64,000 bases of DNA from contig NZ_LMGI01000004.1 in the NCBI RefSeq assembly GCF_001427105.1, positions 62,001 to 126,000 on the forward strand. Reading direction: 5' to 3'. Below, piece by piece: positions 25,875 to 37,024 of the stretch; position 1 is the stretch's first letter, and the number at the start of each line of letters is the position of its first letter. Position numbers and translations under genes: made by a program. The notes beneath the pieces were generated by a model. That model made no database searches. It was not told the DNA's origin and saw only the letters and a program-made list of their open reading frames with translations. This stretch comes from Sphingopyxis sp. Root154. Lineage in GTDB: Bacteria > Pseudomonadota > Alphaproteobacteria > Sphingomonadales > Sphingomonadaceae.

Positions 25875-26303
25875 ATGACCGTCAATCGCGCATCGGCCCG
25901 CTACGAAGGCTTCGGCAAGGAAGGCAAGGGATCGATCACGACCAAATCAGGCGTGCTCGACAAGCAGCCCTATGGTTTCGGTACGCGCTTCGAAGGGCAG
26001 CCGGGTACAAACCCCGAGGAGCTGATCGCCGCGGCGCATGCAGCCTGCTTCACGATGGCGCTGTCGTTCGGTCTCGCGCGCGCCGGCTATTCGGGCGACA
26101 CGCTTGAGACGAGCGCGGAAGTGACGCTGGAGCAGCAGGACGGCGGCTTTACGATCACCAAATCGGCGCTGACGCTGACCGGCAAGGTGCCGGGCATCTC
26201 AGCCGACGAGTTCGCCAAGATCGCTGAAGAAGCCGAGAAAAATTGCCCGGTGTCGAAGCTGCTCGATTGCGAGATCACGCTGGAGCACAGTCTCGACGTC
26301 TAG
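25875..26303 (+). CDS. OsmC family peroxiredoxin
   Basis: Thiol-dependent reductase of organic hydroperoxides, 142 residues, cytoplasmic. The reactive cysteines are in AAHAACFTMAL and EKNCPVSKLL, the usual spacing of the OsmC branch. AAGGAG precedes the ATG. Its last 4 bases overlap the 3' end of the convergent 2H phosphoesterase gene. OsmC proteins often answer to osmotic or oxidative stress; no operator is visible here. Confidence 0.94.
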   Translation: MTVNRASARYEGFGKEGKGSITTKSGVLDKQPYGFGTRFEGQPGTNPEELIAAAHAACFTMALSFGLARAGYSGDTLETSAEVTLEQQDGGFTITKSALTLTGKVPGISADEFAKIAEEAEKNCPVSKLLDCEITLEHSLDV

Positions 26304-26887
26304 GCGGCGCGTAGCAACGGTGCGGGCAGTTCATCTTCCATGAAGGCGAAGGCACTCTGCGCCGGCGGAAGCAGCGACCAGCTTTGCAGCACGCGATGGC
26401 GGCGATGGCCGACATGGCTTTCAATCAGGACGAGCTCGCGTGGAGTCCACCGCCAAGCCATCGGGACCGGGTCGAAGTCACAGGCACCATAGCCGAGCGT
26501 GATGTGGGGCCGCAGCCCCGACTTTCGATGCATCGGTTCGATGCCTTGCGTCTCTAAGAGTGCGACGATGCCCTCATAGAGATGGCGAATGCTGCCGATG
26601 TTTCCGACGGTCGTGAGTTCGGCCCCCACCTCCCGGCTCTTGATGCGTCCAAAGGGAATGTGGCTCGCAGCGGGGAGGCCCGATGCAAACGCTGCCGCGA
26701 CACGCTGGGGCAAGAACGGCTGCGGCTCCATTGTTTCGGCGATCGTGCACAGCGTCAGATGGTAAAGCTGGGGCCTCAGGCCCGCGAACAGATCGCCCGA
26801 AACGGGCGGCAATTGGCGCGCGAGCCAGCCGGCGCGGTCGGCATTTACCTGAAAACCCAGGAAATAGCGGAACATCGGGTCCATCAT
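26300..26887 (-). CDS. 2H phosphoesterase / 2'-5' RNA ligase-like protein
   Basis: 195 residues with the two H-x-T/S motifs of the LigT/2H superfamily: YHLTLC near residue 43 and RPHITLGY near residue 128. The pair forms the catalytic site that acts on cyclic or 2'-5' phosphodiesters. The true RNA substrate is unknown. A more distant relative lies at 34678-35190. Confidence 0.85.
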   Translation of the reverse strand: MMDPMFRYFLGFQVNADRAGWLARQLPPVSGDLFAGLRPQLYHLTLCTIAETMEPQPFLPQRVAAAFASGLPAASHIPFGRIKSREVGAELTTVGNIGSIRHLYEGIVALLETQGIEPMHRKSGLRPHITLGYGACDFDPVPMAWRWTPRELVLIESHVGHRRHRVLQSWSLLPPAQSAFAFMEDELPAPLLRAA

Positions 26888-29372: not shown

Positions 29373-29455
29373 GCCCGCGTGACTTGACTCGCTGTGGCTA
29401 TCGCGTTCTTTTGAAGACGAAAGAAGGGAGCGCGATTCCATGGCCGACGAATTCC

Positions 29456-29884
29456 ATGGCTGACAGGGCACCCGTGCTGCTGTCCGGCGGCAATCCGCAG
29501 ATCGCGAAAGGCTATGGCGACGCGCCGGTGCAAGCCTATATCGCCGCGATGCCGGGGTGGAAGTCGGGCGTTTGGCGCCGGCTCGACAAGCTGATCGAGA
29601 AGAGCATTCCGGGGGTTGCGAAGGCGGTCAAATGGAACTCGCCTTTCTATGGTCCGCCGGGGCAGGGCGACGAGCCGACCCACTGGTTCCTGAGCATCCA
29701 TTGCTTCGACAAATATATCAAGGTCGCCTTCTTTCGCGGCCAGTCGCTCGATCCGGTGCCGCCGGTCGCGTCGAAGAGCGGCGACACGCGCTATTTCCAT
29801 ATCCATGAAGACGAGCCGGTCGACGAGGCGGCATTCGCCGACTGGGCGAAACAGGCGGCGGCGCTGCCGGGCGAGAAGATGTGA
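29456..29884 (+). CDS. DUF1801 domain protein (first of two)
   Basis: 142 residues with the DUF1801 (YdhG-like) core: QAYIAAMPGWKSGVWRRL, then AVKWNSPFYGP and KVAFFRG. The start is unusual: ATTCCATGGC and GAC follow each other twice (29436-29464), and the good ribosome-binding site AAGAAGGGAG serves the first ATG (29440), which reads only seven codons before TGA; the ATG of the long frame is at 29456. The second DUF1801 gene follows 10 bases later. The function of the family is not settled. Confidence 0.8.
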   Translation: MADRAPVLLSGGNPQIAKGYGDAPVQAYIAAMPGWKSGVWRRLDKLIEKSIPGVAKAVKWNSPFYGPPGQGDEPTHWFLSIHCFDKYIKVAFFRGQSLDPVPPVASKSGDTRYFHIHEDEPVDEAAFADWAKQAAALPGEKM

Positions 29885-29894
29885 GGAGAAGGGC

Positions 29895-30293
29895 ATGGCG
29901 GCGGATCTGATCGATGCGAAGATCGCGGGGCTCGGCGATTGGCGCGGAGCGACGCTGACGAAGCTGCGCACGCTGATCCATGCCGCCGATCCGGACGTCG
30001 AGGAGACGGTGAAGTGGCAGAAGCCGTCGAACCCGTCGGGCGTTCCGGTGTGGGAGCATACGGGCATCCTGTGCACGGGCGAGACGTATAAGGACAAGGT
30101 CAAGCTGACCTTTGCCAAAGGCGCGGCGCTTGCCGATCCAAAGGGGCTGTTCAATTCGAGCCTCGACGGCAACATGCGGCGCGCGATCGACCTGTTCGAG
30201 GGCGACGACGTCGACGAGGCGGCGTTCAAGGCGCTGGTGCGCGCCGCGGTCGAGGCGAACCTCGAAAAGCCGACGCGGGCCAAGAAGAGCTAG
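29895..30293 (+). CDS. DUF1801 domain protein (second of two)
   Basis: 132 residues, GAGGAGAAGGG before the ATG. The core ADPDVEETVKWQKPSNP and the LTFAKGAAL segment match DUF1801, with a basic C-terminal tail (KPTRAKKS). It is the tandem neighbour of 29456-29884 but clearly diverged, so a heteromeric or sequential action is possible. The function is unknown. Confidence 0.82.
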   Translation: MAADLIDAKIAGLGDWRGATLTKLRTLIHAADPDVEETVKWQKPSNPSGVPVWEHTGILCTGETYKDKVKLTFAKGAALADPKGLFNSSLDGNMRRAIDLFEGDDVDEAAFKALVRAAVEANLEKPTRAKKS

Positions 30294-30399
30294 CTTATCG
30301 GCGGCAGCCTCGCGGGGAAGAGATCGACGCGCTTTTGGATGATAGAAACGAGTCGCGGCGCGGTCGGGACAAGCCAGCCGAACGCAATGGAGGGAAAAG

Positions 30400-31323
30400 A
30401 TGACGGAGAAGCCGCGGATTTTCCTGGGCTCGTCGGGCAAGCAGGAGAAGCTGATCCAGGCGCTGACGCGCGGACTCGGCGACATCGCGAACGTCGAGCC
30501 CTGGACGACGACGTTCAACCCGGGCGTGTCGACGCTCGAGCGGCTGCTAGAACTGACGCGCGAGGTCGATTTCGCGGCCTTCGTTTTCGCTGAGGACGAC
30601 TGGACGACGAGTCCGTCGACGGCGTCGCGCACCGAATCGAGCCAGGCTGCGCCGCGCGATAATGTTGTGTTCGAGGCGGGGTTGTTCGGCGGCGTGCTAG
30701 GGATGCGGCGGACCTTCATCCTCCACGCGAACGGTGCGAAGCTGCCCACGGACCTTCTTGGCCTCACGTGCGTGCGCTACCCGGGCGAGATGACCGCGAC
30801 CGAGATGCGCGTTATGAATCAAAAGCTGCGCAAGGCGATCGAGAGCGAAGGGCGGCTCCAGCGCATCGAGGGCGTGTGGTGGCAATATTCGCTAACCGCG
30901 CGCAGCGAAAAGGAGCCTTCCGCATTGGGCTTGCTGCGCATCGGGCGCGACCGCGCCGGCGCGCTCACGCTCGTTGGGCGCGCTTGGCGCGCCGACGGGA
31001 CGCTGTCGGCACGCTATGCGAGCGAAGCGACGACGGCGCGCGACGACGGGCTCTTCTATTATTGGAACGGCGAGCGCCCACTCGACCCCGATGCGCCGCG
31101 GCTCGACGGCACGGGCGAGATCCGGCTCGAGGCCGAAGACCGCGCCGCGGGCTATTTCACGACGCGATCGAGCGCCGATCCCGAACTCAATATACGCACC
31201 ACCGGCGTCTATTGGCGCGCGCACCCGGGCGACATGGAAACGATGGACGGCCGCGACGGCCAGGCGCGTGCCGCGCTGATCGCCGAACGGCTCGCCGAGT
31301 GGGAGTCGTTCCGCAACATGTAG
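30400..31323 (+). CDS. TIR-like nucleotide-binding protein with a beta-rich C-terminal domain
   Basis: 307 residues behind a GGAGGG ribosome-binding site. Residues 1-130 are a TIR-like domain of the predicted nucleotide-binding type: IFLGSSGKQEKLIQAL at the start, VDFAAFVFAEDD, and RDNVVFEAGLFGG, where Glu 92 is the likely NAD-cleaving residue. From about residue 155 (EGVWWQYSLTA) to the end the pattern is repeated beta strands with G-W, LVGRAWRADG and YYWNGERP motifs, like a small barrel that could bind a ligand. TIR domains with a sensor at the C-terminus are common in anti-phage systems, but no nucleotide cyclase or other partner gene is nearby. Confidence 0.8.
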   Translation: MTEKPRIFLGSSGKQEKLIQALTRGLGDIANVEPWTTTFNPGVSTLERLLELTREVDFAAFVFAEDDWTTSPSTASRTESSQAAPRDNVVFEAGLFGGVLGMRRTFILHANGAKLPTDLLGLTCVRYPGEMTATEMRVMNQKLRKAIESEGRLQRIEGVWWQYSLTARSEKEPSALGLLRIGRDRAGALTLVGRAWRADGTLSARYASEATTARDDGLFYYWNGERPLDPDAPRLDGTGEIRLEAEDRAAGYFTTRSSADPELNIRTTGVYWRAHPGDMETMDGRDGQARAALIAERLAEWESFRNM

Positions 31324-31395
31324 GCGGCACGCCGTTCGCAAGCTTCCACTTACCTGAGCTCGGATCGAGCTGGCGTGGGCGAGGTGGGGCACCCA

Positions 31396-31827
31396 TTATT
31401 TCGTCGCTGGCCGCGGCTTCATATGCCACAGCGCGTTGACGATGACCCATCGCTCGCCGAATTTGCCCATGTGGAAATAGTCGACGAACCATGGGGTTTC
31501 GACGCGCACCGCGGCGGCGTTACCCGCGACGTCGAGGATCCTGCACGTGCGGTTCCACCCGGCGCGCGGGGTCTTGAGCGCGCCACGTTTCGTGAGGTCG
31601 ACGAGTTCCTCGCGGCTCATGCGCTGCAGCCCGAGCCGCTCGTCGGGCGTGTCGCCCAGAACGCGGCGCTTGGCGAGGTCGGGGTGGAGCGCGCGTTTGA
31701 CGCGCTCGGGATCGCCCTCGAGCTGGCCGTCGACATAATCGAAGCAGGTCGCCTCGATCGCGGCGAGGTCGGCCGGGGATGCGGGCGTTGCGGTCGCGGC
31801 GGCGAGGGTGAGCAGGGTCGTCAGCAT
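31396..31827 (-). CDS. exported NTF2-like protein (lumazine-binding-like)
   Basis: 143 residues with a short signal-like N-terminus (MLTTLLTLAAATATPASPAD). The first helix ATCFDYVDGQLEGDPERVKRALHPDLAKR and the end GERWVIVNALWHMKP match the putative lumazine-binding branch of the NTF2-like superfamily. No catalytic residues can be assigned and no operon partner is evident. Confidence 0.8.
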   Translation of the reverse strand: MLTTLLTLAAATATPASPADLAAIEATCFDYVDGQLEGDPERVKRALHPDLAKRRVLGDTPDERLGLQRMSREELVDLTKRGALKTPRAGWNRTCRILDVAGNAAAVRVETPWFVDYFHMGKFGERWVIVNALWHMKPRPATK

Positions 31828-34677: not shown

Positions 34678-35190
34678 TCAGGCGGCCTCCCCCCGGAGCG
34701 GCCAGCGGCCGTGTTCGACATGGGTGGTCTTGCCGACGATGCTTTCCATCAGGATGATCTCGTCGACCGTCCAGCCGATCGGGGGCATCTTTTGTGCGTT
34801 CTGCCGGTCGCCGCGGTAGTTGATCGTGATGTGCGGTTCGGGGGTGGTGCCGTCCATGATCGGCGCCTTTTCGCGCAGCAGATGGTTCACCAGCGCCTTC
34901 TGGAACGCCCGCGCCTCGGCCAGCGGCTCGCGGGTGCGCAGCGTCACCGCCTTGCGGTTCTCGATCCGGTCGAAGCGGAGCGGGAAAGGTGCTGCGGCGA
35001 AGCCGTCCAGCGCGGCGATGGTCGCGGGCAGCCACTCGGGCGGCGCATAGTGCAGGTCGTAGAGCGAGATGAGCGTGACATGGAGGAGGTGCGGCCCGCG
35101 CGAAGGATCGTTGCGCGGCAGCGCGGCGATCTGCGCCTGCACCTCCGGCGGCGGCTTGGCCATGACGTAGAGGGGGTTCCGGGCGCGCAT
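34678..35190 (-). CDS. 2H phosphoesterase / 2'-5' RNA ligase-like protein
   Basis: 170 residues with the paired motifs HVTLISL (about residue 37) and PHITINYRGD (about residue 120) of the 2H superfamily. It is a distant paralogue of 26300-26887. The start at 35190 has no obvious ribosome-binding site; an alternative in-frame ATG is at 35163. The substrate is unknown. Confidence 0.82.
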   Translation of the reverse strand: MRARNPLYVMAKPPPEVQAQIAALPRNDPSRGPHLLHVTLISLYDLHYAPPEWLPATIAALDGFAAAPFPLRFDRIENRKAVTLRTREPLAEARAFQKALVNHLLREKAPIMDGTTPEPHITINYRGDRQNAQKMPPIGWTVDEIILMESIVGKTTHVEHGRWPLRGEAA

Positions 35191-35341: not shown

Positions 35342-37024
35342 ATGAAAATCAAGAAGATAAGAATTCGCTCTTTTAAGAATATCAATGATATTTCATTAGA
35401 CCTAGATGATATGAACCTTTTAGTTGGTGGAAACAACGCTGGAAAATCATCCGTCATACAAGGTATACATTTCACTATAAGCGCTCTTCGTTCTGCTAAG
35501 ATGCATGGAAAAAGCGCAAATATGCCAGCTAGCACGCTGGGCGTTAATCAATTCACATTTCTTCCAACACAAGAAATAATGGAGATTCATCATAGATGGC
35601 CGATGACTCAGGACTACGGCCCTAAATTTGACTTCCAGTACCTTGATGAAGATGGAGATCTTCAAGATTTTCGTTTGTCTCTTTTTCGAGGGAAGAATGC
35701 AAATATCTCGCTAAATTTCCCGAAAAATTCCCCATTTTTTCGCGCTGCATCTGACGTTAGAACGCCGTTTTCGGTGTATGTGCCCGGCTTGGCGGGAATT
35801 CCACTGGCCGAAGAGCGTAGGGCAAATTCAATTGTACAAACTGGTATTGCGCAGGGGGATGCAAATCTTTTTCTTCGTAATGTATTGCATCGTTTAGAAA
35901 AAGAGCCGCGCCATATGGCGGCGCTATGCACTTTAATGCGCAATATATTCCCAAAATTCGCAGTAGAGACAAAATTCGACGAAAATTTAAATCAATACAT
36001 TTCGTCTAAAGTGCGCCTCGGAGGCAGCTGGACGCCGCTTGAGATGGCCGGGACAGGATGCCTACAGGCTTTGCAGCTCGCCGCCTACGTGATTCTCTAT
36101 GAACCAAAATTGCTGCTGCTGGACGAGCCTGATGCCCATCTCCATCCCGGCAATCAGAAGTTACTTGTAGAATTACTATTTTCGTTGTCGGACACGGCGG
36201 GGACTCAGATAATACTCGCTAGTCATTCGCGTCACGTTTTTGATTCGATACAGAATAATCCGCTCGGCTCCGTTTATTGGCTAAGTGCTGGAGATTTAGT
36301 TGAAGATTTGGACGCCGACGTTGGGCTTCTTCTAGAACTGGGAGCGCTTGATCGATTTGAGGAGCTTAAAAGCGCTGAGCCAAAGGTTTTGGTATTTGCA
36401 GAGGATGAAAAAACGAAGAAACTTGAGATACTTCTTCTGTCAAACGGATGGGATCTGGAAAAATGCAGATTCATTTCGTTCAATGGAGTTGATAACCTAG
36501 AAGCGACAAAGATCGTAGTGGAATATTTTCTCAGCATGAGTGAAGAAGCCAGAGTATTTATTTATAGAGATGGTGATGGAATGACGCCCAATGAGCGAGC
36601 TTGGGCTCTTGAAAGATATGCGAATATCCTTCCAGAAAGATCCACTATGTTTATATCTACGCTTACAGATATAGAGCATTTCTTTTGTAGCTCGGATCAT
36701 GTCGCCGAAATTTGCGAGATTGACGGAGACGAGGCATTTACGATTATCGAAGAAGTGATCGATGAAAATCAGGCAAAGCTATCATCTAAAATTACGAGGA
36801 AGCGTGAAGATTTAAAGTTCAAAATTTTGAGAACTTTCGAAGGCCGAGAGAATATCGATAACGTAATTGGTGACAGGGTCAGCTTCCATTATTCTCTAGG
36901 TAAGATTATTTTGCCGAAAATTGAGAATCGCCTTCGCGAACTTGGGCATAATTTTCAGAGTTTGCTTGCTCCGAGTCCGGCGCTCAGGGTGGAGGAAATC
37001 GAAGAATTCGAAATGCCTGAATAG
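35342..37024 (+). CDS. OLD-like ATPase with Toprim nuclease domain
   Basis: 560 residues. Walker A GGNNAGKSS is at 29-37, Walker B LLLLDEPD near 256 and an H-loop ASHSRH near 295, so the N-terminal half is an ABC/SMC-type ATPase. A Toprim domain follows: KVLVFAEDEKTKK near 345 and FIYRDGDGM near 405 give the metal-binding Glu and Asp residues. This order is that of OLD-family nucleases, many of which defend against phages. Base and codon use are strikingly AT-rich (for example AAA, AAT, TTT and ATT codons) against GC-rich neighbours on both sides, so the gene was acquired recently. No UvrD-like helicase or other partner follows it, so it is not a complete Gabija pair. Confidence 0.9.
   Translation: MKIKKIRIRSFKNINDISLDLDDMNLLVGGNNAGKSSVIQGIHFTISALRSAKMHGKSANMPASTLGVNQFTFLPTQEIMEIHHRWPMTQDYGPKFDFQYLDEDGDLQDFRLSLFRGKNANISLNFPKNSPFFRAASDVRTPFSVYVPGLAGIPLAEERRANSIVQTGIAQGDANLFLRNVLHRLEKEPRHMAALCTLMRNIFPKFAVETKFDENLNQYISSKVRLGGSWTPLEMAGTGCLQALQLAAYVILYEPKLLLLDEPDAHLHPGNQKLLVELLFSLSDTAGTQIILASHSRHVFDSIQNNPLGSVYWLSAGDLVEDLDADVGLLLELGALDRFEELKSAEPKVLVFAEDEKTKKLEILLLSNGWDLEKCRFISFNGVDNLEATKIVVEYFLSMSEEARVFIYRDGDGMTPNERAWALERYANILPERSTMFISTLTDIEHFFCSSDHVAEICEIDGDEAFTIIEEVIDENQAKLSSKITRKREDLKFKILRTFEGRENIDNVIGDRVSFHYSLGKIILPKIENRLRELGHNFQSLLAPSPALRVEEIEEFEMPE

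Follow-up and report, generated by a model that had tools for sequence, protein, structure and literature searches.

We found that a single gene of Sphingopyxis sp. Root154 encodes a TIR domain fused to a predicted C-terminal beta-barrel that resembles the barrel of Cap15. The gene lies at positions 30400-31323 (+ strand) of the window, the 64,000-nucleotide stretch of DNA analysed here, and its product is 307 aa long. Our preferred explanation, which we hold with moderate confidence, is that this gene on its own encodes an NADase effector, with the barrel as sensor of a nucleotide-like ligand. Our analysis computed TIR homology with an intact NAD pocket, a fold model of the barrel, a fusion that is constant in intact copies, and turnover of the gene as a single unit.

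The gene and its TIR domain

The open reading frame starts with ATG, is uninterrupted, and contains the motifs FLGSSG and RDNVVFEAGLF that the first-pass annotation had pointed out. It is a real gene, because 42 further loci encode relatives of its C-terminal domain, 35 of them at full length. The protein consists of a TIR domain (residues 6-127; 30415..30780), a connecting helix (residues 128-154; 30781..30861), an eight-stranded Cap15-like barrel (residues 155-275; 30862..31224) and C-terminal helices (residues 276-306, followed by the stop codon; 31225..31323), all on the + strand. The helices are taken from the structure model, and the barrel from the model, VIA-align, hhalign and BFVD.

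The N-terminal part had been described as TIR-like, and this is borne out by its match to PF10137 (CAP12/Pycsar TIR; E 6.2e-22, 78.3 bits vs the Pfam curated cut-off of 24.7) and by an intact NAD pocket. The PADLOC PycTIR model also matched over the TIR (E 4.5e-22). When the PDB was searched by sequence with the window protein, Cap12 (TIR-STING) and PycTIR were found over the TIR part, together with two other matches at E 0.04-0.07, one of which is another Cap12; a search with the family profile returned Cap12 and PycTIR chains only. The NCBIfam match was limited to the TIR part, and its Cap12 equivalog score of 80.3 bits lies below the cut-off of 450 for a full-length Cap12. Pfam gave no family at cut-off outside the TIR part, and the barrel is covered by no Pfam or NCBIfam model. 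A DUF4178 match (E 0.05, in 1 of 39 members) was judged to be chance.

The portion of the SfSTING study on which we draw (PMC9402430) gives the NAD pocket and catalytic set as F6, S10, W33, F37, L47, R78, N80 and E84, with D110 contributed by the dimer mate. In the window protein, by alignment to 7UN8, this set falls at F8, S12, W35, F39, L49, R86, N88, E92 and D118. The offset that links the chain index to the published numbering was inferred and is consistent at 9/9 positions. All nine residues are identical in 36/36 full-length members. Among them, Glu92 (codon 30673..30675, + strand) aligns with the catalytic Glu84 of SfSTING. The TIR half of the full structure model is poor in places (pLDDT <50 for residues 68-91), but structure comparison still ranks TIR-STING first (Foldseek E 1.7e-7; VIA-align Z 13.6); similarity to the N-glycosidases DNPH1 and MilB was seen as well. 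The TIR domain is predicted to be an NAD+-hydrolysing output.

The C-terminal barrel

The second half had been proposed to be a small beta-barrel within residues 150-307. Modelled alone from 39 sequences, the C-terminal part forms eight strands and then two helices (pLDDT 84.8, pTM 0.82), with the barrel at about residues 155-275. Most of the folds that it matches are membrane barrels or binding barrels, rather than a known enzyme fold unrelated to ligand sensing; they include designed enzymes and a lipocalin-type prostaglandin synthase.

Comparison of this half with known structures had also been suggested, and here the answers were divided: VIA-align, BFVD and hhalign favoured a Cap15-like barrel, whereas Foldseek against the PDB favoured lipocalins. 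With VIA-align, the Cap15 structures 7n34 (Z 10.7, rmsd 2.8, 100 residues aligned, 17% identity) and 7n35_B (Z 10.3) outranked the other natural proteins listed, with OmpA at Z 9.1 and avidins at Z 8-9. Six designed barrels (Z 11.0-12.1) ranked over Cap15, and a designed membrane barrel (Z 10.1) and an engineered OmpA (Z 10.0) lie less than one Z unit from it and are therefore tied with it. In the BFVD viral models, Foldseek found an S-2TMbeta protein as the sole match at E<=0.001 (1.7e-5; next 1.2e-3). In the PDB, its top match was lipocalin PGDS (E 5.7e-4), accompanied by designed barrels, and Cap15 was absent from the best 50 matches listed.

We also compared the family barrel with a profile of 18 Cap15/OptE barrels taken from three genomes and fifteen plasmids. 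hhalign gave a score of 22.99 over 40 columns, pairing FYYWNGERP - GTGEIRLE - GYFTTR with the Cap15/OptE pattern YxYxN-P - HxGxxxL - GxYxTDR, at an HH-suite probability of about 10%. Column shuffles reached this score in 0/200, 1/100 and 2/500 trials (3/800 in total), and in global mode the corresponding counts were 2/200 and 1/100. The controls behaved as chance, with 43/200 shuffles reaching the score for nitrobindin-type barrels and 55/200 for lipocalins; these control alignments are less diverse than that of Cap15 and are therefore weaker tests. An earlier comparison with five Cap15 barrels, which aligned 16 columns in a different register, is superseded by the 18-barrel version. An IMG/VR search for additional Cap15 proteins found none.

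The Pfam family for Cap15, PF18153, did not match the window protein in a search of its own genome at E<=10, nor any of the 39 family members among the matches listed. The domain is not filed as a PF18153 member. Two N-terminal transmembrane helices in the Cap15 style are absent, and the TIR domain occupies the N-terminus in all 36 intact copies. Taken together, we think it probable that the C-terminal domain is a true Cap15-type barrel.

Distribution and conservation

The 42 loci with the C-terminal domain come from one scan of 84,980 species genomes and have best-segment identities of 58-69%. The scan requires exact seven-residue stretches and therefore recovers close relatives only. The 35 full-length relatives are 64-76% identical to the window copy at the protein level. 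One other locus is truncated where its contig stops, and in six the reading frame is broken (L006, L024, L041, L043, L044 and L045; four of these are metagenome bins), either through sequencing error or because an accessory gene that is costly to keep is decaying. TIR and barrel occur together in 36/36 intact copies, the window copy included. The full-length alignment (A3) omits these seven incomplete loci and the barrel alignment (A4) omits four of the 42; L003, whose protein is identical to that of L005, was left out of both.

Named carriers are Sphingomonas, Mesorhizobium, Pseudaminobacter, Phenylobacterium, Croceibacterium, Xanthomonadaceae, Nocardioides and Microlunatus. Further copies come from bins labelled Acidobacteria, Rokubacteria, Gemmatimonadetes, Chloroflexi, Deltaproteobacteria/Myxococcales, Nitrospirae and Euryarchaeota, labels that may be wrong. 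The gene is rare in the genome samples: carriers were found in 2/246 genomes sampled from the order and 1/385 from the class (the organism's own). At phylum level the barrel profile matched 19/398 genomes at E<=1, three of them strongly (own copy included) and the other 16 with a best E of 0.008-0.8. The ORFs of two weak matches (L055 and L056) look by eye like acyl-CoA ligase, ABC transporter and S-adenosylmethionine synthetase, with no TIR. The C-terminal domain was unmatched in the phage and plasmid collections, and IMG/VR gave 15 and 88 pattern stretches of which none was confirmed at the sensitivity used.

Across 36 sequences, mean pairwise identity is 0.81 for the TIR (residues 4-127), 0.71 for the barrel (155-275), 0.52 for the C-terminal helices and 0.36 for the loop at residues 69-82; conservation of the barrel thus comes close to that of the TIR. 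The barrel strands carry numerous invariant W, Y, R, Q, S, T, E and G residues. Judged from sequence conservation, and with inward-facing side chains not located, these residues would fit a polar-aromatic pocket for one constant ligand.

The gene tree mostly keeps phyla together, with 11 label changes vs a minimum possible of 8. However, one bin labelled Rokubacteria groups with Methyloceanibacter (97/81), another labelled Chloroflexi is nested in Actinomycetota (100/99), and Mesorhizobium copies form two well-supported, unjoined clades separated by weak forks. Subject to the caveat on bin labels, this suggests some horizontal transfer of the gene.

Turnover at a single-gene site

The gene occupies a variable site (30294..31395). 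On one side a DUF1801 gene ends at 30293, and on the other lies a lumazine-binding-like gene (31396-31827, minus strand). Genomes of the same genus have other single genes, or no gene, at this position. Six same-genus loci carry the lumazine-binding-like gene, and in none of them did the TIR-barrel gene align. In L113 both flanking genes are present about 30 bases apart and the TIR-barrel gene is absent. In L115 an upstream N-acetyltransferase gene nearly abuts the lumazine-binding-like gene, and therefore this locus lacks the TIR gene as well as the two DUF1801 genes. The site is occupied by a 2'-5' RNA ligase-like gene, under the Pfam cut-off, in L110 (L110:2122-2730) and L112 (L112:815-1354), and by a ThuA gene in L111. 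The left side of L114 did not align, which leaves site occupancy to be read from the other five loci. From this six-locus comparison, we conclude that the TIR-barrel gene was gained or lost here as a single-gene unit.

Some genes around the site resemble those found elsewhere. The window itself contains a 2'-5' RNA ligase-like gene at 34678-35190 (- strand; PF13563, 44.6 bits), which by eye is like the site gene of L110 and L112, and a gene at 26300-26887 (- strand) that is similar by eye to these genes and has no Pfam match. Two adjacent DUF1801 genes (29384-30293, + strand) lie directly upstream of the TIR-barrel gene. A DUF1801 gene also adjoins the relative in Pseudaminobacter (L018:10617-11087), which may be chance.

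Neighbours and the search for a partner synthase

A conserved housekeeping neighbourhood would have argued against the reading given in the first-pass annotation, and no neighbour is common to the family. When stop-to-stop ORFs of the window region and the 42 loci were clustered, no neighbour family occurred in more than nine loci, the gene's own frames excluded. The commonest, in nine loci at scattered positions, is an ABC transporter by the label of its L039 member; the second, in eight loci, is unannotated. Six Mesorhizobium loci share synteny. With a simple custom gene caller, 30 immediate neighbours from 20/42 loci were scanned, of which 22 had a Pfam match at E<=0.001 and eight had none. 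The matched families include a group associated with detoxification or accessory metabolism (carboxymuconolactone decarboxylase 3, GST 2, glyoxalase, AHSA1, RibD_C, GFA) and also cation efflux (2), DUF1801, acetate kinase, RsmJ, NAMPT, a LuxR-type regulator and Prim-Pol. In a Steroidobacter bin, the NAMPT-family gene (L040:1026-2450) is on the opposite strand and ends 3 bp from the TIR-barrel gene.

The absence of a cyclase nearby, remarked on in the first-pass annotation, extends to the relatives. No CD-NTase or nucleotide cyclase family was present among the 22 Pfam-matched neighbours from 20 loci, and a CD-NTase profile built from five sequences had no match at E<=1 in 5,865 ORFs from the window region and the 42 loci (759 kb of loci; flanks up to 10 kb, shorter where contigs end). 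On 15 plasmid control loci, most of them containing a synthase fragment only, the same profile matched five, two strongly. In one plasmid locus, from Shewanella baltica, a gene that matches the CD-NTase profile (E 3.9e-22) precedes a Cap15/OptE-like gene (L072:890-2511), and on the far side of the latter comes a small gene that carries the annotation diadenylate cyclase. The searches for SMODS, for mCpol (PF18182, E<=10) and for Cap15 covered the organism's own genome, and none of the three had a match there. It contains 19 GGDEF matches, and therefore nucleotide second messengers exist there.

The surroundings of the gene are not a dense defence island, because none of 10 further window proteins matched PADLOC at 1e-5. 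About 4 kb downstream, at 35342-37024 (+ strand), lies a gene for a 560 aa AAA_15/OLD-like ATPase (PADLOC AriA 1.9e-28, NsnB 3.1e-28, fused AriAB model 1.2e-15) whose last 217 residues have no Pfam or PADLOC family. It is possibly a second defence gene.

Discussion

The TIR-barrel protein appears to combine parts of known immune effectors. It resembles TIR-STING (Cap12, CBASS) in its N-terminal PF10137 TIR, its nine identical NAD-pocket residues, the presence of a putative C-terminal sensor and a similar total length, but this candidate sensor is a predicted beta-barrel rather than STING, the Cap12 equivalog cut-off is not reached, and no CD-NTase was detected near the window gene or its relatives. 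With Cap15 (CBASS) and OptE (Panoptes), which are S-2TMbeta proteins, it probably shares the eight-stranded barrel and, in hhalign, shows the common pattern YxYxNxP / GxxxxL / GxYxT-R. Those proteins carry two transmembrane helices whereas this one carries a TIR output, and it differs from them in matching no PF18153 and having no synthase detected in cis. The S-2TMbeta group was reportedly defined in a 2015 comparative genomics paper. Like PycTIR (Pycsar) and TIR-SAVED (CBASS), the protein joins a TIR effector to a putative nucleotide-sensing domain, but in the PycTIR model the TIR is C-terminal (positions 149-286 of 288). SAVED is a different sensor fold from this barrel. In the part of the CBASS literature that we cite, TIRs are fused to SAVED or STING (PMC10419184), and in that on S-2TMbeta the two-helix element is termed obligately fused to the barrel (PMC12657218).

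Based on these comparisons, we propose a model in which the N-terminal TIR is the output and would hydrolyse NAD+ upon TIR-TIR packing, and the C-terminal Cap15/OptE-type barrel is the sensor. We infer NADase activity, ligand binding, oligomerisation and a role in defence. When a small ligand is bound or released, the oligomerisation of the barrel would change; this ligand is most probably nucleotide-like and constant across hosts. The change may complete TIR active sites between protomers, comparable to the part that Asp110 from the dimer mate plays in SfSTING. The completed sites would then drain NAD+, and the infected or stressed cell would stop.

The gating of TIR packing by the barrel is suggested by analogy with relatives. 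According to the sections cited, TIR-STING requires packing that brings D110 into the active site of its mate (PMC9402430), and Cap15 is active with nucleotide bound, whereas OptE becomes active once nucleotide is lost (PMC12657218, PMC12657230). Thus, by the same analogy, the ligand may be either an activator or an inhibitor. Free c-di-GMP is unlikely to be an activator because the host has 19 GGDEF matches; an inhibitory housekeeping ligand, or one made by phage or under stress, would fit better. One form of the model, which we regard as a long shot, is a one-gene guard that works in reverse: a housekeeping nucleotide normally fills the barrel and holds the TIR inactive, and once phage sponges or a shortage of nucleotide during infection empty the barrel, NAD+ destruction is triggered. 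Such an arrangement would account for the missing cyclase, the conserved pocket and solitary movement between phyla and, if true, it would follow the logic of Panoptes with no synthase of its own.

The strongest competitor to a nucleotide-sensing effector, although we consider it somewhat doubtful, is a calycin-like pocket in the style of lipocalin, avidin or nitrobindin that binds a non-nucleotide metabolite or xenobiotic, so that the TIR answers chemical stress and not phage. The best Foldseek matches in the PDB, lipocalin PGDS and designed ligand-binding barrels, agree with this, as do the detoxification and accessory-metabolism genes among the 30 scanned neighbours. However, VIA-align ranks Cap15 over avidins and lipocalins, the top BFVD match is an S-2TMbeta protein, the lipocalin and nitrobindin-type profile controls are at the level of chance, and the TIR has Cap12 and PycTIR as its sequence relatives.

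It is unlikely that the TIR, instead of being a cell-killing NADase, makes a signal or serves in NAD or nucleotide salvage outside immunity. The resemblance to DNPH1 and MilB and the convergent NAMPT-family gene in L040 would suit such a role, but all nine SfSTING pocket residues are kept, the sequence relatives are Cap12 and PycTIR, and NAMPT stands beside just 1 of the 20 loci with scanned neighbours. We give about as little credence to an orphan CBASS- or Panoptes-type effector served by a nucleotide synthase encoded elsewhere in the genome: known CBASS TIR and Cap15 effectors do pair with a synthase, as far as the cited part of that work describes them (PMC10419184), and the genome has its GGDEF matches, but it has no SMODS or mCpol match, no CD-NTase was detected within up to 10 kb of the 42 relatives, and the gene is gained or lost alone.

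No description of a TIR fused to a Cap15-type barrel was found, by title or abstract, among the papers listed in our searches of the open-licence literature. If our preferred explanation of a one-gene effector with a Cap15-like sensor is true, the combination would show that bacterial immune proteins swap their output and sensor modules more widely. For a single small gene with no synthase detected nearby, the question becomes what a Cap15-like barrel senses when there is no dedicated signal-maker, and this question is experimentally approachable.
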